This document shows, one piece after another, positions 18,018-31,753 of a stretch of DNA of 50,302 nt (position 1 is the first letter of the stretch; every line of letters begins with the position of its first letter). This DNA is from an uncultured Gammaproteobacteria bacterium (GTDB lineage: Bacteria > Pseudomonadota > Gammaproteobacteria > Pseudomonadales > Halieaceae), in the NCBI GenBank assembly GCA_902519405.1, contig CABYJX010000010.1, positions 1 through 50,302 of the forward strand. Reading direction: 5' to 3'. The notes under the pieces were generated by a model. The model searched no databases, was not told the origin of the DNA, and saw only the letters and a list, made by a program, of their open reading frames with translations. Made by a program: the position numbers and the translations under genes.

Positions 18018-18287
18018 CTACAAATTCTCAGGAGCATCGCCACGCAACCAATATACCCACGATAAAATAACAGCCACCGCAATATACAGCTCTTCGGGTA
18101 TTTCCTCATTTAATTCCAGGTTCATCAAAAGTCCAACTAAAGTAGGGTCGCTTGTAACAGGAATCCCTTGGGATATGGCATTTTGAATCATCGCTTCAGC
18201 AATCTCATAGTCCCCTTTTGCTATCACTCTTGGAGTAGAATTTTGCTCGTATTTTAGAGCGACAGCCTGCTTATCTGGGTCATCCAT
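18018..18287 (-). CDS. FlhX: stand-alone FlhB C-terminal-domain paralogue
   Basis: The 89-residue protein matches only the cytoplasmic C-terminal domain of FlhB: AVALKYEQNSTPRVIAKGDY (about residues 8-27), IPVTSDPTLVGLL and IPEELYIAVAVILSWVY. The membrane domain is absent and the sequence starts just after the position of the autocleavage motif. In FlhB, this region interacts with FliK during the switch from hook to filament export. It follows a FliK-like gene by 9 bases, resembling the ylqG-ylqH pair of Bacillus. The full FlhB is encoded at 30596-31753. Confidence 0.88.
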   Translation of the reverse strand: MDDPDKQAVALKYEQNSTPRVIAKGDYEIAEAMIQNAISQGIPVTSDPTLVGLLMNLELNEEIPEELYIAVAVILSWVYWLRGDAPENL

Positions 18288-18296
18288 GTATCGTAC

Positions 18297-19409
18297 CTAT
18301 GTCTGTAAATCAAGAAAGGAGCCTTGCGTGTCATTACTTTGGGCTGAATTTTCCCTGACCCTTCGGCCTGTGATTACGCTTGTATTGCTAGTGATGATTT
18401 GGTACCGCTCTAATTCAAAAGTTAGCTCAGATAGCATATTTTTCATCAAAGATGCCGTACCAGCTCTATCAGCCCACAGTGTGATATCGAGGAGCCCCTT
18501 ATCGAGGAGAGAGGCTTTTACAGAGACATCTCCTAGATTTGGATCAGCTGTATCTAATGCGATTGACCAAGCGCGACTCTCACTATTTTTACCCTTATTG
18601 CGCCCCTCTATCTCCACCTGGACACCGCTGCCCTCTTGAAAAGGTAAAACAAATCGATACAGCACATCTCGTCTTTCCTGTGCAATAAGACTCTCTATTT
18701 GAGCCAATTCAATGCCATCAATTGCACCCGAAATCTTGGATATTTGCTCTATATCTTGCGAGTACGTTTCTCGCAATAACAGCAACGCTTGCTTTATGTC
18801 CAATCGGCCTCGCGACTTATCACTCAACATCGATTCAGTGAACAAGCCCGAATGAAGCAGTGCATCAGCTACCAATCTAGGGGTGATTTTCGAGCGATTT
18901 GATGGCAGTTGTAGAAGTCTAAACTTGTCAGAGAGGCCGCTATCACGTGATTTTTCTGCCAATGCAGCGAACCCGGAGGCCCCAAGAATTGACGCTAAAT
19001 CCTGCGAGGCCAGCCCCGCGCTATTAAGTTTTCCTATGTGTGAGAGTGCAAACTGGACAAGCACTGATGGCAGCGAGGTCATAGTGGAAGGACGATTAGT
19101 GGAGATATTTTTAGAGGCTGATGGCTGACTAGTCGGCAACAAATGCTTGCCGTAGATACTAGTGGCGTACCTTAAACTTAGCGCAGCACCAGCGGAATAT
19201 ATTGATACTGCAGGAAGGCGGAAACTTCTCTCATTCGCACTTAGTAGTAAATGTTTGCCTCCATGCTCTACCAATGCCTTTACAATTTGACCATCTCGAA
19301 GCTGAAGTTCTTTCGCAGCTGCTTCTGTGATCTGTATCGGTGGTTGATTTACTAGCAAGCCGCTCAAAGGTCGTGAGGAAAGGCCTAACTGCTCTACTCC
19401 ACTTGTCAT
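18297..19409 (-). CDS. FliK-like protein paired with FlhX
   Basis: A 370-residue protein not clearly named by any single motif. Its C-terminal part (about residues 245-345) has the pattern of the FliK hook-length-control domain: FVLPFQEGSGVQVEIEGRNK, then alternating strands (VSVKASLLDKGLLDITLWAD) and an amphipathic helix (MKNMLSELTFELERY). The N-terminal half is Ser/Leu-rich and probably flexible. No signal peptide is present. It is start-linked (9 bases) to the FlhB-like flhX, so the pair looks like a second FliK-FlhB module. The classical FliK is at 35857-37641. Confidence 0.65.
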   Translation of the reverse strand: MTSGVEQLGLSSRPLSGLLVNQPPIQITEAAAKELQLRDGQIVKALVEHGGKHLLLSANERSFRLPAVSIYSAGAALSLRYATSIYGKHLLPTSQPSASKNISTNRPSTMTSLPSVLVQFALSHIGKLNSAGLASQDLASILGASGFAALAEKSRDSGLSDKFRLLQLPSNRSKITPRLVADALLHSGLFTESMLSDKSRGRLDIKQALLLLRETYSQDIEQISKISGAIDGIELAQIESLIAQERRDVLYRFVLPFQEGSGVQVEIEGRNKGKNSESRAWSIALDTADPNLGDVSVKASLLDKGLLDITLWADRAGTASLMKNMLSELTFELERYQIITSNTSVITGRRVRENSAQSNDTQGSFLDLQT

Positions 19410-21754: not shown

Positions 21755-23860
21755 ATGGCAACACTCTCTATGTCATCATTTCGACAATCGATGTCGACTT
21801 TTGAACTATCAACATTAGGAATTCCATTACTCCTTCTACTCATTATTTCGATGCTAGTGCTGCCTTTGCCGCCATTTTTACTCGATGTTTTATTTACGTT
21901 TAACATCATACTAGGACTAGTGATCATAATGATCGCAGTTCACGTCAAGGCACCCCTGGAATTTTCATCTTTCCCGCTCATATTGCTTTTTGCAACTATG
22001 CTAAGACTTGGTCTGAATGTCGCATCTACACGAGTGGTTTTGGTTAACGGACATGAAGGTTCAGATGCAGCCGGCAAAGTCATCCAAGCATTTGGAGAAT
22101 TTGTAATAGGTGGCAATTATGTGGTTGGTATCATCGTTTTCGCTATATTGATGATCATCAATTTTATTGTAGTGACCAAGGGTGCAGGGAGAGTGTCTGA
22201 AGTTATCGCACGATTTACTTTGGATGCGATGCCAGGAAAGCAAATGGCCATTGATGCGGACCTAAATGCGGGGGTAATCGATCAAAATACAGCAAAAATA
22301 AGAAGAGAGGAACTTTCTCAGGAGTCTGATTTTTATGGATCAATGGACGGTGCTTCTAAATTCGTAAGAGGGGATGCGATTGCGGGATTATTAATTCTTG
22401 TTATCAATATCCTCGGTGGTTTAATGATTGGGATAGCACAGCACGATCTAAGTTTCTCGGAAGCAGGAAGGATATACGTACTTTTGACTATCGGAGACGG
22501 ATTAGTTGCCCAAATTCCGTCTCTTTTACTATCGCTTTCCACTGCTATCATAGTGACTAGAGTTACTACTCAGGAAACTGTCTATTCACAAGCAGCAACG
22601 CAGCTGGCAAACCCACTTGCCTTCTTTGTTGCCGCGGCAATTATACTTATCCTTGGCCTTGTACCAGGTATGCCACACTTTGTGTTTATAGCTATTAGCG
22701 CTGGTGCTATTGCGATGGGTGTTTCAATCCTCAGAAAGAATCGAGCTTCGACAACCGCTGTCGATAGTCCCGAAACACCCAATCAAACCGAAGAAGAAGA
22801 GCTTGATTGGGCTGATCTAGATCAAGTAGATCTGGTCGGAGTAGATATCGGCTATGGTCTTATTCCATTGGTAAGTCCCGAGTCTGGTGGAACTTTACTG
22901 ACAAAAATAAAAGGTGTTAGAAAAAAGCTTTCAGCAGAGTTAGGTTTCTTGGTTCAGCCAATAAGAATAAGGGATAACCTAGAACTTGAGCCAGATGCCT
23001 ATAATATTGTTATCAGTGGCGTGGTGCGCGGAAGAGGTGAGATTAAGGTTGGACAGGAGTTGGCAATAAATCCCGGTGATGTTCATGGTGAGCTTAACGG
23101 GACTCCAACTAAAGAACCCGCGTTTGGCTTGGATGCATACTGGATTGACAGCTCTCAAAGAGACTATGCACGCACCCTAGGTTACACAGTTGTCGACCCT
23201 GCTACGGCAATCGCTACCCATCTAAATACGATTCTTCTGGATAATTCATCAGAGCTTCTCAGTCACGATGAAACTCAGCAGCTGCTCGATAAAGTGGCGG
23301 AGAGATCGCCCAAGCTTGTGGAAGAGCTGGTGCCAGACAAGATGTCATTATCTGTTATCACTAAAGTTCTTCAAAATTTACTGGCCGAAGGCATCAGTGT
23401 AAGAGATATGAGATCAGTCATCGATGTACTATCCTCGGAGTCAGGAAAAACAAGTGATCCAGATCAATTGACAGCTTTGGTTCGGCCTCGATTGGGTCGC
23501 TTTATCATGCAGAATTTAATTAGCGTCGACGAAGCATTGCCAGTCATGACCCTCGAACCAAAACTTGAGCAAATAATTACGAATGTACTGCAGCAAAGCG
23601 AGAGAAGTGGATCTCTCATTATAGATCCTAAATTAGCGGAGAGCCTGTTTAAATCACTTAAAGAGGAAGCACAGTCGGTCGAGCAAAAAGGGCTACCTGC
23701 TGTGTTAGTGATTTCACCGGCATTGAGACCTTGGCTTTCTCGTTCAGCACGTCAACGCATACCAGGCTTGACAGTCTTGTCCTATACGGAAATTCCGGAA
23801 GATCAAGATATCACCGTAGTTGCGACAATAGATACCCAAGAACAGGAGAATGAAGAATGA
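21755..23860 (+). CDS. flhA: Flagellar export gate protein FlhA
   Basis: FlhA is the major export-gate protein. Eight or so membrane helices fill the N-terminal half, with the family signature FATMLRLGLNVASTRVVLVN, then FTLDAMPGKQMAIDADLNAG in the cytoplasmic loop. The C-terminal half (from about residue 350) forms the cytosolic ring that docks chaperone-substrate pairs. I chose the ATG at 21755 (701 residues), with AGGGG 10 bases upstream; a TTG at 21731 would add 8 residues. The stop overlaps the flhF start as ATGA. Confidence 0.97.
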   Translation: MATLSMSSFRQSMSTFELSTLGIPLLLLLIISMLVLPLPPFLLDVLFTFNIILGLVIIMIAVHVKAPLEFSSFPLILLFATMLRLGLNVASTRVVLVNGHEGSDAAGKVIQAFGEFVIGGNYVVGIIVFAILMIINFIVVTKGAGRVSEVIARFTLDAMPGKQMAIDADLNAGVIDQNTAKIRREELSQESDFYGSMDGASKFVRGDAIAGLLILVINILGGLMIGIAQHDLSFSEAGRIYVLLTIGDGLVAQIPSLLLSLSTAIIVTRVTTQETVYSQAATQLANPLAFFVAAAIILILGLVPGMPHFVFIAISAGAIAMGVSILRKNRASTTAVDSPETPNQTEEEELDWADLDQVDLVGVDIGYGLIPLVSPESGGTLLTKIKGVRKKLSAELGFLVQPIRIRDNLELEPDAYNIVISGVVRGRGEIKVGQELAINPGDVHGELNGTPTKEPAFGLDAYWIDSSQRDYARTLGYTVVDPATAIATHLNTILLDNSSELLSHDETQQLLDKVAERSPKLVEELVPDKMSLSVITKVLQNLLAEGISVRDMRSVIDVLSSESGKTSDPDQLTALVRPRLGRFIMQNLISVDEALPVMTLEPKLEQIITNVLQQSERSGSLIIDPKLAESLFKSLKEEAQSVEQKGLPAVLVISPALRPWLSRSARQRIPGLTVLSYTEIPEDQDITVVATIDTQEQENEE

Positions 23861-25017
23861 GGCTTGAAAAAATAGTTGGTCCGGACTCTCGTACCGTGAT
23901 TGAAAAAATACGACGATCCTTTGGAGATGAGGCGCTAGTAATCTCCAACTCTAGGTCAGAGAATAAGAACGAAATTATTGTCGCCATTGAAGGGGATGGA
24001 CTTGTCGACTTAGCCGAGATGGCTCAAGAACCGCTGGAGATTAAACAGGCACCAGATCCGGAGGTTACTGATACTGACGATCTGCGAGCTAATGTCACCC
24101 TTGAGATATTAAGAAAAGAATTGATGGAGTTTCGCGCTGAAATGGAAAAGATGAGTAACAAGTCATCTGCCAATTGGCTCTACAAACCAAAATTATCATC
24201 ATCCCATCAACAGATATTGTGGAGTGAACTTGAAGAAATCGGAGTCCCAGAATCTATGCGAAAAGCTTGGATAGAGGCGATTCCTTCCCATGCGACTCCA
24301 AATGAAGTAGTAGCACATATTGTATCAGTAATTCATAACGGTTTGATCAAGCCAGAGATGAATGTAACATCAGGACAAAATCTTTTAATCGTTGGCAACC
24401 CTGGCTCCGGTAAAACATCAATGGCTGCTAGGGTGGCTGCTAGGATTTTGGATAAAGATAATGAAGGACGGGTTGCTATTATAAGTTATCGTGACAGTAG
24501 ATTAGGTTCTTGGAGCACTTGTCAAGTCATCGCTAACCGACTCGGAGCTGAGAGTTATCGAATTCAGGATCCAGGAGAACTTAAAAAAGTATCTACCGAG
24601 CTTGAGGAGGGAGTGATGATTATTGATACCTCTGGGGCAAATACGCCAGAGGATATAGCCGCCATAGAGAAAATATTAACCAATGTGGTGATTTGCCCTG
24701 TGGTAGCATGCGACTCCAGTGAGAGCAGCACCCGCGAGATTATTAGTTGTATAGGGGAAGAGAGAATCCACTCGGTCATGCTGACACGTTTGGAGCAAAA
24801 TCACGTACCATGGGAAACTCTAGGGGTGCTTCTAGACAAAGGTATAAGCGTCTCTAGCGGAACCTTCGGAAGGGATGTTGCAAATCCCAAACAAATAAAA
24901 TTTGATAAGGAATTGGCCAAAAGTATCGAAAATCTTATATGCGAAGACTTTGACCTTGAATGGTCGATAAATCATAATCAGTTACCATTAGATATGACGC
25001 CAAGAGCGCCATCGTGA
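23857..25017 (+). CDS. flhF: Polar flagellar GTPase-family protein FlhF
   Basis: FlhF is an SRP-type GTPase that places the flagellum at the pole. The 386-residue product has the short N-terminal domain, a helical linker (about 75-165), and a G domain starting with the P-loop GNPGSGKTSM (about 180-189) and a G3-like DTSG (257-260). The expected TKLD guanine-specificity motif reads TRLE (310-313), and the usual GQ-x-VP-x-D segment after it is replaced by SSGTFGRDV. It could therefore be a weak or inactive GTPase. It overlaps flhA by 4 bases and precedes flhG. Confidence 0.92.
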   Translation: MRLEKIVGPDSRTVIEKIRRSFGDEALVISNSRSENKNEIIVAIEGDGLVDLAEMAQEPLEIKQAPDPEVTDTDDLRANVTLEILRKELMEFRAEMEKMSNKSSANWLYKPKLSSSHQQILWSELEEIGVPESMRKAWIEAIPSHATPNEVVAHIVSVIHNGLIKPEMNVTSGQNLLIVGNPGSGKTSMAARVAARILDKDNEGRVAIISYRDSRLGSWSTCQVIANRLGAESYRIQDPGELKKVSTELEEGVMIIDTSGANTPEDIAAIEKILTNVVICPVVACDSSESSTREIISCIGEERIHSVMLTRLEQNHVPWETLGVLLDKGISVSSGTFGRDVANPKQIKFDKELAKSIENLICEDFDLEWSINHNQLPLDMTPRAPS

Positions 25018-25026
25018 GTTTAATTT

Positions 25027-25851
25027 ATGTCTCTTAAAAAACCCATTAAGGTAGTTGGTGTTTCGAGCGGAAAAGGTGGTGTTGGAAAAACTACTATATC
25101 GGTAAATATTGCGGCAGCCCTCGTCAAGCAAGGCCTTGACGTACTTTTACTAGATGGTGATCTGGGTCTAGCAAATGTCCAACTCGCACTGGGAGCTGTA
25201 AGTGAATATAACTTTAGCCACGTTTTATCCGGGGAAAAGACACTTGATGATGTAGTAATAGAGACTGTCAGCGGAGTAGATCTAGTCCCTGGAGCTAGCG
25301 GACTAAAGGATCTCGCATCACTTTCTGAGAGAGAAACTAGCTCAGTTATCCAAGCGTTCTCCTCTCTTACTAAGCAATATGACGTTTTTCTTATTGATAC
25401 AGCTGCCGGTATATCCAGTTCTGTCGTGTCACTTTTAGGCGCTTGCCAGCACCGTATTATTGTTTTAAAAGATGACCCATCTTCCATTGCAGATGCCTAC
25501 GCAACTATTAAAGTTTTATTCTTAGAGGGCATAACCAGAGGCATATATTTGTTGCCAAATGAAGTGGCTGGAATGGAACATGCAGAGCAGTTATTCACAA
25601 ATTTAAATAAAGTTATTGCCAAGTTTTTGGGATTTGAGACATCCTATGCTGGTTTCGTAAAACATGACGACGCGATACCTCAAGCCTGGAAAAAAGCTAT
25701 GCCAATTGTATCCTGCTTTCCGAATTCTGAAAGTGCTAGAGAATTTAGGAAGCTTGCAAACTTCGTTACTAATCTAAATAGTAATATGGATGATAATGGC
25801 GGACTGCAATTTTTTTTCAACCAATTACACTCCGCTTACCGGAGCGCGTAG
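25027..25851 (+). CDS. flhG: MinD-like ATPase FlhG/FleN
   Basis: FlhG (FleN) limits flagellar number, acting against FlhF and on FleQ. The 274-residue product has the deviant Walker A motif SGKGGVGKTTISVN (about residues 14-27), LLLDGDLGLANVQLALG (about 39-55) and LIDTAAGISSSV, all typical of the family, followed by a C-terminal amphipathic part that could bind membrane. It lies 9 bases after flhF and 4 before fliA. A run of eight T bases near its 3' end encodes LQFFF. Confidence 0.95.
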   Translation: MSLKKPIKVVGVSSGKGGVGKTTISVNIAAALVKQGLDVLLLDGDLGLANVQLALGAVSEYNFSHVLSGEKTLDDVVIETVSGVDLVPGASGLKDLASLSERETSSVIQAFSSLTKQYDVFLIDTAAGISSSVVSLLGACQHRIIVLKDDPSSIADAYATIKVLFLEGITRGIYLLPNEVAGMEHAEQLFTNLNKVIAKFLGFETSYAGFVKHDDAIPQAWKKAMPIVSCFPNSESAREFRKLANFVTNLNSNMDDNGGLQFFFNQLHSAYRSA

Positions 25852-25855
25852 TTAA

Positions 25856-26584
25856 GTGGTGAGAGATGGAGTCAAAACTTATGGCGAAATCCAAAGCGAG
25901 GCTTTGGGAGATAATGCAGTATTAAATAATCTCGCTTTGGTTAAACGAATAGCACTTCACTTAAAGGCGAGAGTTCCGGATGTCATTGAGCTGGATGATA
26001 TGATTCAAGTTGGTACTATCGGATTGATGGAGGCGGTAAAAAGTTTTCGTTCCGATGAAGGTGTAGAGTTCGATTTCTTTGCTAAAACTCGAATTAAAGG
26101 TTCTATTTTAGATGAGGTTAGGAGACTTTCAAGCCTTCCCAGATCTGCTATTTCTAATATAAAAGCTCATAACGAAGCAATCAAAACGCTCAATAATAAA
26201 TTAGGTCGAGAACCGCGAAATTCAGAGATTGCCGATCATTTAGGTATTAGCTTGGATCAATTTGAGCATGAGAGAGAACATGCAAATCGTTTTCAAACTA
26301 TACCTGAAGAGAGCTCTTCTACGCTTAGCGAGAAAGTGGACACCCGCTCACACTCTATAGATCCTCAAGATTCTGTTCAAGACGATGAGGTGCGCTCAAT
26401 GTTGGCTGATGAAATTAAAAATCTTCCAGAGCGAGATCAGCTGGTGCTATCTCTATACTATGAAAAAGAACTCCACCTCAAGGAAATAGGAGCGATCATA
26501 GGTGTGAATGAATCCCGAGTTTCGCAAATTCTTTCTGCGACTGCTAAGAAATTGCGTGCTACTATCAATAAAAAAGTAAGTTAA
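25856..26584 (+). CDS. fliA: Flagellar sigma factor FliA (sigma-28)
   Basis: FliA directs RNA polymerase to late flagellar promoters. The 242-residue protein has region 2 (VIELDDMIQVGTIGLMEAVK, about residues 41-60, with FDFFAKTRIKGSILDEVR), region 3 and region 4 with the helix-turn-helix LKEIGAIIGVNESRVSQI (about 208-225). It begins with a GTG 4 bases after flhG; a second GTG follows at once. FliA-type promoters are visible at 17172, 21601 and 47176. FlgM at 17246 is its antagonist. Confidence 0.96.
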   Translation: MVRDGVKTYGEIQSEALGDNAVLNNLALVKRIALHLKARVPDVIELDDMIQVGTIGLMEAVKSFRSDEGVEFDFFAKTRIKGSILDEVRRLSSLPRSAISNIKAHNEAIKTLNNKLGREPRNSEIADHLGISLDQFEHEREHANRFQTIPEESSSTLSEKVDTRSHSIDPQDSVQDDEVRSMLADEIKNLPERDQLVLSLYYEKELHLKEIGAIIGVNESRVSQILSATAKKLRATINKKVS

Positions 26585-26606: not shown

Positions 26607-27119
26607 ATGTCTCTTTTTTCAAGATCAAAGGGTAATCAGAGAGCCATGGCACAAGCCAAAGCAGAATTTGAAAAAATTCTCACGGCAATTAAAGAAGACA
26701 AACGTGTTGATAGGGCTCTTCGATCGAGAATTGCCTTCAGGACACGATCACACATTGACCAAACATTTATCGAAGGAGCAAAAAAAGCCGAAATTTATGA
26801 CCACCTTTGCTTGCAAGCAGTTGCAAAGGGAGAAACGAAACCTGAACCACCAGAACCAGCTCTATTTAAAGTAATAAAAACTAATACAGGTAACTTTTTT
26901 GCCTATCTCCCGAAGGAGCCAGCGAACAAGATATTCTTACTGGGCGGACTCTATCAGACCATGGAAATTTCTGGCGAGCAAGCGATTGAAAAAGTTCAAG
27001 CTATCGCTGATGAGATTTGGGAAGAACTGGGTGTTGCTCAGAGTTTAGAATGCCTCCGCTTTCTTGCCGCAGAATTGGGTCTAGAAGATGAAGAGGATGC
27101 AACAGAGCTCACAAGTTAA
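26607..27119 (+). CDS. Unrecognised soluble protein downstream of fliA
   Basis: The 170-residue protein has no signal peptide or membrane segment. The N-terminal 75 residues are basic and helical (MAQAKAEFEKILTAIKEDKR). A proline-rich hinge (about residues 79-85) leads to a mixed alpha/beta part (FKVIKTNTGNFFAYLPKEPA, then LGGLYQTMEI) and an acidic helical tail. I recognise no family. It is 22 bases after fliA and its stop overlaps the next start (TAATG), so it belongs to the flhA operon. Pseudomonas-like clusters have che genes here. Confidence 0.75.
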   Translation: MSLFSRSKGNQRAMAQAKAEFEKILTAIKEDKRVDRALRSRIAFRTRSHIDQTFIEGAKKAEIYDHLCLQAVAKGETKPEPPEPALFKVIKTNTGNFFAYLPKEPANKIFLLGGLYQTMEISGEQAIEKVQAIADEIWEELGVAQSLECLRFLAAELGLEDEEDATELTS

Positions 27120-27706
27120 TGTCACTAAGTTTCATACTAGCTCTGGCCACTGGCTTGGCAATAATCATCCTCCTACTTTATATTATCGGTCGCATGGGTA
27201 AGCTCGAGGAAGTAACAAGAACTATATTGCAGAGTAAAAACGAGGTGTCGAGAGAATCTAAATCAGGAAAGACAGGGAAGTCTCTTGAAAATAGCGAGGA
27301 TTTACAGGGAAAAGAATTATGGGATGCTTTGACTGGGAAAGGTGGCGATGTCAACGCAGAAAATATTGACTCTATTAGACAAAGATATGAGATCATCTTA
27401 AAAAAACATGTGCAAACTCTCCTTCAAGCGGGTTATGCAGACTCGCAGAGCGGTGGAATAAAAAAAAATCCAGGGAATTTAGATTCGATAAATACGCTCA
27501 GGGGCACCGTGCAATCATGGTTGCCTTCCGAACATTGCGCCGTGCTTTATAATTCGGGATATGAACTAGCCAATACAGATGAAAAAAGCGATCTGGACCG
27601 ATTAAGAATGAGCATCGATGATTCAATTGCTACTCTTTTTGATCAAGTGGATTTGCAGTTTCCCAGAGACTTTTCCCAGGGATTAATAAGCTCAATGATG
27701 GAATAA
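27119..27706 (+). CDS. Unrecognised single-span membrane protein
   Basis: The 195-residue protein has one N-terminal membrane helix (about residues 4-23, FILALATGLAIIILLLYIIG). A charged helical linker and a cytoplasmic-looking C-terminal region of about 120 residues (RQRYEIILKKHVQTLLQAGY) follow. The layout loosely recalls SwrB of Bacillus, also after the flagellar sigma factor gene, but I see no sequence match. It is start-stop coupled to the preceding gene. An A9 run at 27460-27468 lies in the coding region. It ends 16 bases from the convergent gene at 27723. Confidence 0.75.
   Translation: MSLSFILALATGLAIIILLLYIIGRMGKLEEVTRTILQSKNEVSRESKSGKTGKSLENSEDLQGKELWDALTGKGGDVNAENIDSIRQRYEIILKKHVQTLLQAGYADSQSGGIKKNPGNLDSINTLRGTVQSWLPSEHCAVLYNSGYELANTDEKSDLDRLRMSIDDSIATLFDQVDLQFPRDFSQGLISSMME
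27460..27468 (+). repeat. A9 homopolymer inside the single-span protein gene
   Basis: Nine A residues, read as the end of ATA then AAA-AAA-AA(T), lie at about codons 114-117 of the 195-residue gene. Runs of this length are prone to polymerase slippage. A one-base change would cut off roughly the last 80 residues. Confidence 0.6.
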
Positions 27707-27722
27707 CAGGAATTTTCGATTA

Positions 27723-28781
27723 CTAATCTGCCTCATACAAAACAATATCAGACGGCTCTTCAATTTCCACGCCTGCTTCTCTGTCGGCATTCTTTTTCTC
27801 TAATACATCAAGATATCTTTCCCTAGTTAATGTAACCAATGCCTCTACTTGATTTTCTAGGGAAGATAGCCCCGTCATTTTGCCCTGCATAGCACCTACA
27901 GTATTCGTGAGCCTTTTTATCGATCCCGACAAATCGGATACCGTACCGCGTTGGGTAGAAAGAGCCTTCTTAAGTTGATCTATCTCCTTATTCACTTCAC
28001 TAACCTCTGAAGAGACACTGGTCGCAGTAGCTACAGGTAGATCTGACTTAAGCTCTACCAAGGTATTGGACGCACCCATGACTACTTCCTCAAGGCCTTC
28101 ATATTTTAAAGAGGCGTTGGCCTGTTTCTCAGCGAGAATCCGGATATCAAATTGAAGCTCTTCAAAAAGCTCCAGACTTTGATTCATCTTGACCACTCGC
28201 TTGGTGACGGCCATGACCAATGCATCTACCTCTGAAACCCGTGAGGAAAGCTGGATTATCATAAAAATGAAGACCATGACAGCTACGGCCAGTACTGAGC
28301 TTACGGCAGCAAGTATGAGCTTGATTTGGTTAGACTGGCGAGCAAAAAGTAAGTTATTCCTTTCTAGTCTTCCATCTAGTTCAGTTTGTGTCAGAGATAA
28401 ACGCCTCATAGTGTTGAGGCTTGCTTCACTCGCTGTGGTAGACGCCTCAGCGGCATCAAGTGCTGTCGGTATTAGACCTTCTAGCTGGTTAATAACTTCA
28501 GCACCCGTCATTATAACTTCTGTCAACTCTTCTGACGGATTTGGTTCGTCTCCTTTCTGATGAGTTTCTTGACTATTGCCATCAGCAATTTCTTCAAGGG
28601 AGGAGTCAGTTTCCCCTGCAGCATCATCTCCCTGCGGACCCGAAGCTAGCTCTTCAGACTCCACCTCACCATCTGAAACTTCGGAACCTTCGTCCATTTC
28701 AGTGGCTTGTGTTTTCTGACTATCTATGCTCTCTTCAGTTTCAGAATCAGCGTCAACAACTTTTTCTTCTTCGTCCGCCAA
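27723..28781 (-). CDS. Unrecognised membrane protein with coiled coil
   Basis: A 352-residue protein in three parts. Residues 1-85 are very acidic and probably disordered (EEKVVDADSETEESIDSQ). A helical stretch leads to one membrane helix at about 154-178 (LILAAVSSVLAVAVMVFIFM). Residues about 180-330 form long amphipathic helices typical of coiled coil (VNKEIDQLKKALSTQRGTV). I do not recognise a family. It is the last gene of the fliE-flhB operon, 14 bases after the 106-residue gene. Topology suggests a membrane-anchored filament or scaffold; this is inference. Confidence 0.75.
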   Translation of the reverse strand: MADEEEKVVDADSETEESIDSQKTQATEMDEGSEVSDGEVESEELASGPQGDDAAGETDSSLEEIADGNSQETHQKGDEPNPSEELTEVIMTGAEVINQLEGLIPTALDAAEASTTASEASLNTMRRLSLTQTELDGRLERNNLLFARQSNQIKLILAAVSSVLAVAVMVFIFMIIQLSSRVSEVDALVMAVTKRVVKMNQSLELFEELQFDIRILAEKQANASLKYEGLEEVVMGASNTLVELKSDLPVATATSVSSEVSEVNKEIDQLKKALSTQRGTVSDLSGSIKRLTNTVGAMQGKMTGLSSLENQVEALVTLTRERYLDVLEKKNADREAGVEIEEPSDIVLYEAD

Positions 28782-28795
28782 AATGAACTCCTCTA

Positions 28796-29116
28796 TTACT
28801 TGCTACTGCCCAAGCTCTCCATTATAGAAGCTATCGAACTTCGTAATTTTCGTATGCGCTCAGCAAAAGGACGATCAGAACTACTCTTTGAAACTGAAAA
28901 ACGTGCTTTGCCATGCATCAACAACTCCACTGCAGTATCCGGATTGTCCCCTAAAGTTCTGGGCTCTTTGTCTTGCTCTACAACTTTTTCCGGATATGCA
29001 AGATAATCCGATTTTTCTGAGGTATCGGGACACTGTATTTTTTCAAGAGGATTTCCTGAAACACTCCCGATTGCCTCGCTTTCCCCAGACTTCCTATAGA
29101 TTTCACCTTCCGTCAT
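28796..29116 (-). CDS. Unrecognised small polar protein
   Basis: The 106-residue product is soluble and largely polar; the C-terminal 30 residues (FAERIRKLRSSIASIMESLG) could form an amphipathic helix. No family is recognised. Its start overlaps the end of the 498-residue gene by 14 bases and it precedes the coiled-coil gene by 14 bases. This tight overlap, rather than its own sequence, is the main reason to call it a gene. Confidence 0.6.
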   Translation of the reverse strand: MTEGEIYRKSGESEAIGSVSGNPLEKIQCPDTSEKSDYLAYPEKVVEQDKEPRTLGDNPDTAVELLMHGKARFSVSKSSSDRPFAERIRKLRSSIASIMESLGSSK

Positions 29117-30599
29117 CTTCCACCTCGGAAGGTACTCTGGAAACTATATATTCTCCCCTTACTATCACAACATCGGCAGTGGCTTCATTTTCTTTAGCAA
29201 CATTCATAGCATCATCGCGCGTAGCGTAAGGTCCAGAAAAAACCACATGCCAAAGCTTTGTTTGCGAAAACTGTGGCAATGAGAACGTTGTCGAAAAATC
29301 AGCAAAGATCTCTGTTGCTGCTGTACTTGCTGCAATCTGTGAAGAAAGGGCAGCATGCTGCAGGTAAAAAGCAGCGGGATCAATCGAGTTATCTAGTTGA
29401 TCTTTTTTTGACTCCTCATCAACTTTTTCCTCCAGAATTTGTTTATAAGGCTCTTCAATCTCATTAGTATTATCTGAGAGTGGAACTTCATCTACGATGA
29501 TTGATGATGCAATATCTTCTTCAATCATTACAGATTCCTCTTTGAACTCAGTCTCAGTTGATAGGTTGTCGGCACTTATCTCCTCAACTATTGGCTCTAC
29601 AAAATCTTCTTCACCGGTAGACTCTAACACCTGCATGGAATTCTCATTAGACGGCAAGGAATCGTTCTCTACTTCCTTTTCAATCAAAGAACCCGATAAA
29701 TTGTCAAGGCTATCGTCAATTATCTCTACCTCGCTTTCCTGAGCTAATGCGGCATCGTCGCTACTATTATCAATTGCTCTATCGGCTACTTTAAAATCAG
29801 CAGCGTTCTCGTCATTTAATTGATAAGCAACTCCAAAGGCGACAATCAAGATGAGTGCAAAAGTAAAAGACAGAAACTTGTTAAATTTCCTTTTCCCGGT
29901 AACTTCAGCCGAAACATCTATGCTCTCTTCATCAGAATATCCTGATGTCCGGTCTATCTCTAAATCCGATCCCGTGATTCCAAGCGCGGCTAATTTTTTC
30001 TTATTGTGAGAATGATAGGGAGTGAGAGAAGACGCATCTAGAAAACTTACCAGTTCCCGTGCATCTGGAAAATTGCAGTAACATCGTGTTAAACGAGAAC
30101 CTAGGAGTTTGAAAAATGCTTCCACTTCTTGATTAAAAGGTTCTTCGCATATGATTAGCAAACCGCAATTTGCTCCGGGAAAATCAATCAGCAATCTAGC
30201 CAATAAGTCCCACTCGTTTTTTGCCATTCCAGTACAGTCACTGATAACTAGAATTTTTCTGTGTAACTCCGAATCGGTCGCAATTTTTGCCGCATTGACG
30301 CTAATATCCTTGAGACGCTTGTTGTAAAAGTCTAAAAGCGCGTCTGTAGTTACAGAAAAAAAGACCTCTAGTTGATAGCGATCGCTTTCCTTTAATTTTG
30401 CATACAAATATTCAAAATAATAATTAAGCAAATCCACTCTTGGTCCACATAACGCCACATATGGGTTATCCTCAGATAGGCGCCCTGAAATAGATCTTAT
30501 TTGTATCTTGTCCTGCTCCCGCAAAAACAACATATCACCGTCCATCCAACTATCTATGGATTTGATATGTCGTTGATTGTCTATATCAGAGTTGTTCAT
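29103..30599 (-). CDS. DamX-like membrane protein with SPOR-like C-terminus
   Basis: The 498-residue product has the layout of DamX/GspA-type proteins. Residues about 20-190 look like an AAA-type nucleotide-binding domain that has lost its Walker A lysine (ALCGPRVDLL where GxxGxGKT is expected; strand KILVISDC where Walker B is expected). A membrane helix follows at about 241-261 (LSFTFALILIVAFGVAYQL), then an acidic linker of about 190 residues and a SPOR-like end (KLWHVVFSGPYATRDDAMNV). SPOR domains bind denuded septal peptidoglycan. The start overlaps flhB as ATGA, so translation is coupled. The family call is by pattern only. Confidence 0.75.
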   Translation of the reverse strand: MNNSDIDNQRHIKSIDSWMDGDMLFLREQDKIQIRSISGRLSEDNPYVALCGPRVDLLNYYFEYLYAKLKESDRYQLEVFFSVTTDALLDFYNKRLKDISVNAAKIATDSELHRKILVISDCTGMAKNEWDLLARLLIDFPGANCGLLIICEEPFNQEVEAFFKLLGSRLTRCYCNFPDARELVSFLDASSLTPYHSHNKKKLAALGITGSDLEIDRTSGYSDEESIDVSAEVTGKRKFNKFLSFTFALILIVAFGVAYQLNDENAADFKVADRAIDNSSDDAALAQESEVEIIDDSLDNLSGSLIEKEVENDSLPSNENSMQVLESTGEEDFVEPIVEEISADNLSTETEFKEESVMIEEDIASSIIVDEVPLSDNTNEIEEPYKQILEEKVDEESKKDQLDNSIDPAAFYLQHAALSSQIAASTAATEIFADFSTTFSLPQFSQTKLWHVVFSGPYATRDDAMNVAKENEATADVVIVRGEYIVSRVPSEVEDDGR

Positions 30600-31753
30600 T
30601 GAATAACTTCATCCCTTAATTTACCTGTTTCGTCGAAATCCAGTTCTGGCGGCACTTTGGGCTTAGGACGCTGATATTCTCCAGTGGCACTGAATGTTCC
30701 AATAGAAAATACGTAAGCTATTACCTGGGCTACCGCGTGATATAGTGGCTCTGGAATAAAACTGCCGACGTCAGTAGTAAAATACAGAGCTCTAGCCAAT
30801 GGTGGAGCCTCGAAAAGGGAAATACCTTCCTGTGTGGCTCTATCACGAATACGTAAAGCCATGAAGTCCGCTCCCCTCGCAACTACTCTGGGTGGATCAC
30901 TGCCGTTGGGATCATAAGCAAGAGCTACCGCAAAATGTTCTGGATTAGTTACAACGACATCGGCGGTAGGCAAAGCTTCAAGCATTGATTGCATTGCCAT
31001 ATCTCGCTGTCGTTGCTTTATACGAGCTCGAACCTCCGGCTGGCCCTCCATTTCTTTACGCTCATCTTTGACCTCTTGTTTGGTCATTTTCATGCGATTT
31101 GTGAAAGAAATTATCTGATAGGGCACATCTACTAACGCCACTAACACAAGGCTTATAGAAACAAATAACATTCCAAGTGAGAGCATTTCGGCAGCGCTTT
31201 CAATTGCGGGGTTCATCGCCATTACTGATAGATAAATGAAATCTTTAGCATAGATTGTATAGACGATAAATAATGAGGACCCTATAAGAAGGAATTTCAA
31301 AACCGCCTTAGCTAATTCTATAAGTGCCTTAGTCCCAAATATTCTCTTAAATCCATTTATAAGGCTTAACTTGGAAAGCTTGGGAGCAGCAGCCTTGAAA
31401 GAAAATATAAATCCTCCCAACGTGGCTGAAGGAATAATAGCTAAAATAATAGTCAGCACTAGTATTGGTGCAATGACCCAAAATCCCTCTCTTAGCTCTG
31501 TGCCGACAAGACCAGAAAATAATTGATCAGAAAAGATCATTCTCCTGTCAAGTACAAAACCTCTTGCAAATACATCCAGTAGGGAGTCTATTAACTCCCC
31601 ACCAAATACATACATAGTTATTACGACCATCATCACCATAACCGCGACATTTAAATCCTGAGAACGGATGGCCTCACCCTCTTCCCTTGCTTTCTCAAGA
31701 CGCTTCGCTGTCGGTTCTTCTGTTTTATCTTCCTGCGGACTCTCTTCAGCCAT
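30596..31753 (-). CDS. flhB: Flagellar export switch protein FlhB
   Basis: FlhB sits in the export gate and switches substrate class after self-cleavage. The 385-residue product starts with DKTEEPTAKRLEKAREEGEA (about residues 9-28), has four membrane helices, and a cytoplasmic domain with the cleavage region VVVTNPEHFAVAL (about 261-273); most FlhB proteins have NPTH there, this one has NPEH. A C-terminal tail (EYQRPKPKVPPELDF) follows. It is 2 bases after fliR and overlaps the DamX-like gene by 4 bases. The paralogous C-terminal domain is flhX at 18018. Confidence 0.96.
   Translation of the reverse strand: MAEESPQEDKTEEPTAKRLEKAREEGEAIRSQDLNVAVMVMMVVITMYVFGGELIDSLLDVFARGFVLDRRMIFSDQLFSGLVGTELREGFWVIAPILVLTIILAIIPSATLGGFIFSFKAAAPKLSKLSLINGFKRIFGTKALIELAKAVLKFLLIGSSLFIVYTIYAKDFIYLSVMAMNPAIESAAEMLSLGMLFVSISLVLVALVDVPYQIISFTNRMKMTKQEVKDERKEMEGQPEVRARIKQRQRDMAMQSMLEALPTADVVVTNPEHFAVALAYDPNGSDPPRVVARGADFMALRIRDRATQEGISLFEAPPLARALYFTTDVGSFIPEPLYHAVAQVIAYVFSIGTFSATGEYQRPKPKVPPELDFDETGKLRDEVIQ

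Follow-up and report, generated by a model that had tools for sequence, protein, structure and literature searches.

Four genes, here called A, B, C and E, which adjoin the flagellar genes fliA and flhB of an uncultured gammaproteobacterium, keep their order and are inherited together in a single flagellar lineage of marine gammaproteobacteria; FipA is absent from the loci of this lineage, and the GTPase part of their FlhF is eroded or lost. We favour the reading that the four proteins act as a module for the placement of the flagellum and the initiation of its assembly, which may do the work done elsewhere by FipA and the FlhF GTPase, and we give it a probability of roughly 0.4. It is the best of the readings weighed because of the tie to one lineage, the FipA-like site and layout of B, and the erosion of FlhF.

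The window, by which we mean the whole 50,302-nucleotide stretch of DNA analysed, is contig C10 of a 1.7-Mb draft genome that is 60% complete; a gene A 92% identical to its own is present in a Halieaceae MAG. Five genes, A to E, lie at positions 26607-30599 (Table 1). A and B are joined to the end of the flhA-flhF-flhG-fliA operon, in which neighbours overlap or are at most 10 bases apart; 22 bases separate fliA from A, and the A stop and the B start have the sequence TAATG (27117-27121) in common, a one-base overlap. On the opposite strand E, D and C are joined to flhB: the flhB stop and the E start share ATGA (30596-30599), and D and E overlap by 14 bases. The ends of B and C are 16 bases apart. 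With such tight spacing and overlaps, the fliA-side and flhB-side groups each look co-transcribed. The first-pass annotation of this DNA is confirmed on the five genes, on their coordinates and overlaps and on the 16 bases between the two groups. Hydropathy analysis gave one clear span each in B, C and E, the three single-span membrane proteins already proposed there. A and D have no span, and a fainter additional peak at 132-150 of E lies within a domain predicted to be folded. The long coiled coil that had been noted is found in C, with an acidic N-terminal region and the span. Values of dN/dS against a congener (L004) are 0.046 for A, 0.094 for B, 0.093 for C, 0.215 for D and 0.169 for E, with 0.029 for flhB. 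These low values, together with a gene order that is kept in other genera and families, identify A-E as genuine genes.

Table 1. Features of the window and of related loci (f, family; g, genus; locations without a locus prefix are positions in the window).
Feature	Location	Strand	Description
flhF	23857..25017	+	Eroded
flhG	25027..25851	+	Without the N-terminal DQAxxLR motif
fliA	25856..26584	+	Final standard gene of the flhA-flhF-flhG-fliA operon; A and B joined on
Gene A	26607..27119	+	170 aa, soluble, directly 3′ of fliA; founding copy of the A/B domain family
Gene B	27119..27706	+	195 aa; N-terminal span 5-23, then cytoplasmic A/B domain
Gene C	27723..28781	-	352 aa, TTG start; acidic N-terminal part, span 155-173, coiled coil
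Gene D	28796..29116	-	106 aa, soluble, fast-evolving
Gene E	29103..30599	-	498 aa; alpha/beta N-terminal domain, span 243-261, acidic linker, SPOR 408-469
flhB	30596..31753	-	Export-gate gene; E, D and C joined to it
FliK-like gene and lone FlhB-domain gene	18030-19409		Overlapping pair
Short FlhF, g12/g24	L015:4302-5072, L017:5573-6340, L018:5746-6549		
Short FlhF, g12/g24	L019:5875-6747, L021:5983-6768, L022:6263-6913		
Extra A paralogue and its neighbour, f15/g42	L064:9344-10688, L073:8789-10177, L074:12098-13464		
Second gene E of G041 (g24)	L145:8274-10112		612 aa, with SPOR
RTX-like repeat protein beside C, f45	L066:5230-7623, L067:14358-16487		

Gene A was found in 10 of 120 genomes of the window's family and in 26 of 391 genomes of its order, the hits falling in families f1, f15, f41, f42 and f45. 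Class-wide samples returned the window's own genome as the sole match, for B (1/369) as for A (1/239), and every copy of A that was found lies in a single order. At all 28 loci opened around primary A copies the gene lies directly 3′ of fliA, and FlhA was detected at E ≤ 1e-100 in 25 of the 26 A-positive genomes of the order, the remaining one being a fragmented draft. The flagellar link of the gene set, which the first-pass annotation had suggested, is therefore strong; homologues lying mainly away from flagellar genes, or in hosts without flagella, were looked for, and neither pattern was found. The whole order fliA-A-B><C-(D)-E-flhB is present in 20 loci from three families: in genera g1, g12 and g24 of f1, in six loci of f42 and in four of f15. 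C and E diverge most among the proteins, and at a few g12 loci they were assigned by position and alignment and not by BLAST. Partial versions also occur. In f45, A-B><C is kept with flhB elsewhere; in the f45 genome G459 A-B alone was seen, and in f41 A alone.

As to the view that all five genes belong to one set, it holds for A, B, C and E, which keep their order in the 20 loci, and fails for D, which is variable. D is the weakest member, being 59% identical even inside the genus; beyond the genus we could recognise no sequence conservation, and a small, unrelated-looking ORF fills its place in f15, f42 and f45, so that position is kept more than sequence. In f15/g42, an extra A paralogue stands away from fliA, beside a protein of about 275 aa without a Pfam match.

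A FlhA tree built from 42 loci groups every A-bearing locus in a single clade (support 1.000), whose A-bearing members are spread over five families. The clade is joined by G314, whose contig ends just 3′ of fliA. A-less flagella of the same families, even those of other g12 species, lie outside it. Since the A-bearing loci form one FlhA clade across families, the module marks a distinct flagellar cluster, which either moved from family to family or is an ancient second system that many have lost. In A-less loci flhB adjoins flhA, and a motA-motB-like pair is often found 3′ of fliA. MotA-MotB thus occupies in A-less relatives the slot that A and B take in the lineage, but has no similarity to either in Pfam searches.

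The surprising part of these clusters is the eroded FlhF of the same operon, which lies outside 26607-30599. When scored with the FlhF family model (NCBIfam TIGR03499, cut-off 174.15 bits), the window FlhF reaches 98.8 bits, with 30.6 bits for SRP54; its P-loop is kept (GNPGSGKTS), and TKLD is replaced by TRLE. All ten lineage proteins tested fall below the cut-off, at 21-133 bits, compared with eight of ten FlhF proteins above it among A-less relatives, where L106 (92.5 bits) and L109 (130.4 bits) have a weak FlhF. A genome-wide search of 35 genomes revealed no lineage-cluster FlhF that passes the cut-off. G459 carries two whole flagellar regulatory clusters (L068, L155) and provides an internal control, with 204.6 bits for its FipA-linked FlhF and 95.4 bits for the A-linked one. 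The lineage gene is placed between flhA and flhG, as a standard flhF in the same operon, and its product matches the N-terminal part of the model, with the FliG-binding end kept; it differs in staying under the family cut-off throughout the lineage and in the complete loss of the GTPase domain in g12 and g24.

In these two genera FlhF is only 216-290 aa long and consists of the FliG-binding N-terminal end alone, with no P-loop and no GTPase domain (Table 1), and no other FlhF was found genome-wide. The single-contig genome G041 (98% complete) holds the short FlhF only, plus matches to the later part of the model that are probably Ffh and FtsY. In FlhF, FliG binding lies in the first 44 residues and HubP binding in the NG domain (PMC11236974). 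As nothing but the N-terminal part remains, g12 and g24 have kept the end that should hold FliG and lost the presumed pole-finding end.

The GTPase activity of FlhF is activated by the N-terminal DQAxxLR motif of FlhG. This motif is absent from FlhG at all lineage loci, including the window. We do not regard its loss as specific to the lineage, however, for most of the A-less relatives examined are without it too.

FipA (DUF2802, PF10975) is a membrane partner of FlhF that recruits FlhF to the pole, and its gene elsewhere lies downstream of the flhA-flhF-flhG-fliA operon (PMC11620751). DUF2802 was found in 162 of 391 genomes of the order, of which G459 is the sole one that is also A-positive (1 of 26). 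In the second cluster of this genome (L155) FipA is seen directly after fliA, the site that A-B takes in its lineage cluster. Among the loci opened, FipA and A/B never occur in the same locus. Mutual exclusion of A and FipA at the level of genomes, read as proof of replacement, is weakened by many flagellated relatives (f1, f41, f42) that have neither, and only the statement on loci is therefore kept. The erosion or loss of the FlhF GTPase and the absence of FipA in these loci give indirect support to a polar role for the module.

B resembles FipA in having a short N-terminus, one span and a cytoplasmic domain, and the short N-terminus and N-terminal span are found in all orthologues tested. 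It also sits downstream of fliA and only alongside flhF and flhG. The domain itself is unrelated, and B is accompanied by its soluble paralogue, A, as well as by C and E. Pfam searches gave no DUF2802 match in A or B, and profile-profile comparison returned 1.4% and 0.1%, the former for B, so that membership of B in the FipA family was rejected.

A and B are paralogous, the soluble and the membrane-anchored version of one domain. A profile-profile comparison (hhalign) aligned them over 110 columns at 95.7% (E = 8.9e-9), and each profile recovers the proteins of the other, at best at about 1e-7. Neither has a Pfam family above the cut-off, and A is without an NCBIfam family as well; Pfam has no entry for the protein family that the A/B domain represents. 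Sequence searches against solved structures yielded no informative match to either protein, and an AlphaFold model of A, built from the window and two close relatives, has a pLDDT of 51, too weak to use. The hmmscan matches of C were dismissed as coiled-coil noise. Searches of the literature found no description of these genes.

DamX consists of an AAA_22 domain, a span and a SPOR domain, and its gene adjoins aroK-aroB. The description of E as DamX-like is correct for the layout and goes no further. A SPOR domain (PF05036, E = 2.7e-6) is present in the window protein, and in 11 of 19 E proteins overall. In g1, f15 and f42, E has the same order of cytoplasmic alpha/beta domain, span, acidic linker and SPOR. 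In contrast to DamX, however, it has no P-loop (0 of 20 proteins) and no AAA domain above the Pfam threshold, adjoins flhB and not aroK-aroB, and lacks SPOR in the flhB-operon copies of g12 and g24, which stop soon past the span. The true DamX of G199, with AAA_22 at E = 2.4e-16, lies 3′ of aroK-aroB-like genes. E has no detectable relation to true DamX (hhalign 0.8%). On these grounds a place for E in the DamX family was rejected. In G041, whose flhB-operon copy has lost SPOR, a second, full-length E with SPOR lies off this operon. The alpha/beta N-terminal domain was modelled with AlphaFold from the window and two close relatives, at a pLDDT of 43 that is too weak to use; Foldseek matches of this model are mostly P-loop NTPases, none of which reaches E = 0.001, and they are a hint only. 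A sequence search against solved structures found only a weak match to the SPOR domain of DamX.

HubP/FimV, like E, crosses the membrane once, has acidic regions and carries a module that binds peptidoglycan. E differs from it in having no FimV C-terminal domain (TIGR03504), and no NCBIfam match to E was found at E ≤ 1. A separate FimV/HubP is still present in 36 of 39 genomes tested, so that neither E nor the gene set as a whole is supported as its replacement, and the module does not stand in for a HubP that is missing.

The placement reading can be put as follows. The nascent basal body would be held at its proper site in the inner membrane, most probably at a pole of the cell, where its assembly would be started. 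B, anchored by its N-terminal span, would present the A/B domain in the cytoplasm, and soluble A may pair with it through the domain they have in common. Together they could hold FlhF, whose N-terminal FliG-binding end remains, and thus FliG-FliF. The genes for C and E are coupled to flhB, a gene of the export gate, and their products would tie the complex to the envelope, C through its coiled coil and E through its cytoplasmic domain and, where present, through SPOR binding to the septal peptidoglycan of the new pole; SPOR domains in general target septal peptidoglycan, which becomes the new pole (e.g. PMC6895207). All contacts between proteins, the location at the pole and the idea that the module took over from FlhF/FipA are what we infer from sequence. 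Several observations count against this reading. B is not a homologue of FipA (hhalign 1.4%), HubP/FimV persists, E has lost SPOR in the very genera with the shortest FlhF, and some members of the lineage hold A alone or A-B alone. FipA and a strong FlhF can also be lost without the module, since many A-less flagellated relatives lack FipA and some of them have a weak FlhF.

Alternatively, C and E may form a periplasmic scaffold round the basal body by means of the coiled coil and the peptidoglycan-binding SPOR domain, while A and B take the cytoplasmic side, and the motor or its stators would be steadied much as H-ring and T-ring proteins do it. Large parts of C and E are predicted to lie outside the inner membrane, SPOR occurs in 11 of 19 E proteins, the slot after fliA is often filled by motA-motB in A-less relatives, and the lineage clusters also encode FlgT- and FlgP-like proteins. 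We nevertheless consider a scaffold unlikely, as it leaves the coincidence with FlhF erosion unexplained and fits poorly with the flhB-operon E copies of g12 and g24, where SPOR is absent and A, B and C are kept. It is less probable still that the module helps to insert or stabilise FlhA, FlhB and FliPQR and has no part in choosing the pole. The tight translational coupling that joins E with flhB and A-B with the flhA operon, and the way in which the module tracks one FlhA clade, would suit such a role in the export gate; f45, however, keeps the module with flhB elsewhere, and a gate role would not account for the decay of FlhF.

The least probable of the explanations, and a very unlikely one, is that E is akin to the SPOR proteins of cell division, the other genes being passengers, without a direct flagellar role for any of them. 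The DamX-like layout of E, the second full-length E of G041 outside the flhB operon and the f15 paralogues of A away from fliA would all be in keeping with it. Against this, E cannot be aligned to true DamX (0.8%), is without a P-loop in 20 of 20 proteins and does not lie beside aroK-aroB, while purifying selection and the constant site after fliA speak against passengers.

Returning to placement of the flagellum by A, B, C and E, a more specific form of this reading is doubtful, though it is not as improbable as the scaffold. It holds that placement driven by the FlhF GTPase and FipA was replaced by a GTPase-independent one, in which FlhF was cut to its FliG-binding end, completely so in two genera, and the A/B pair with C and E came to anchor membrane and envelope. 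Genomes without the GTPase half but with the FliG-binding end constitute a natural experiment on how FlhF places the flagellum and on the share that either half has in this, for which the A/B/C/E module gives named and testable candidates for the replacement of this half.

The clusters of the lineage show further peculiarities. Within the window, a gene for a second FliK-like protein (Flg_hook, weak) overlaps one for a lone C-terminal FlhB domain, and this pair is kept next to the flgT and flgP of the lineage. At the f45 loci, a large protein that has glycine-rich, RTX-like repeats adjoins C and a small protein, the latter standing at the place of D, where other families have flhB-E. One locus, L003 (NZHT01000004.1), comes from a contig labelled Flammeovirgaceae; as the flagellar locus that it carries is gammaproteobacterial, with a FlhA 96% identical, an error in the label or in the binning is probable.
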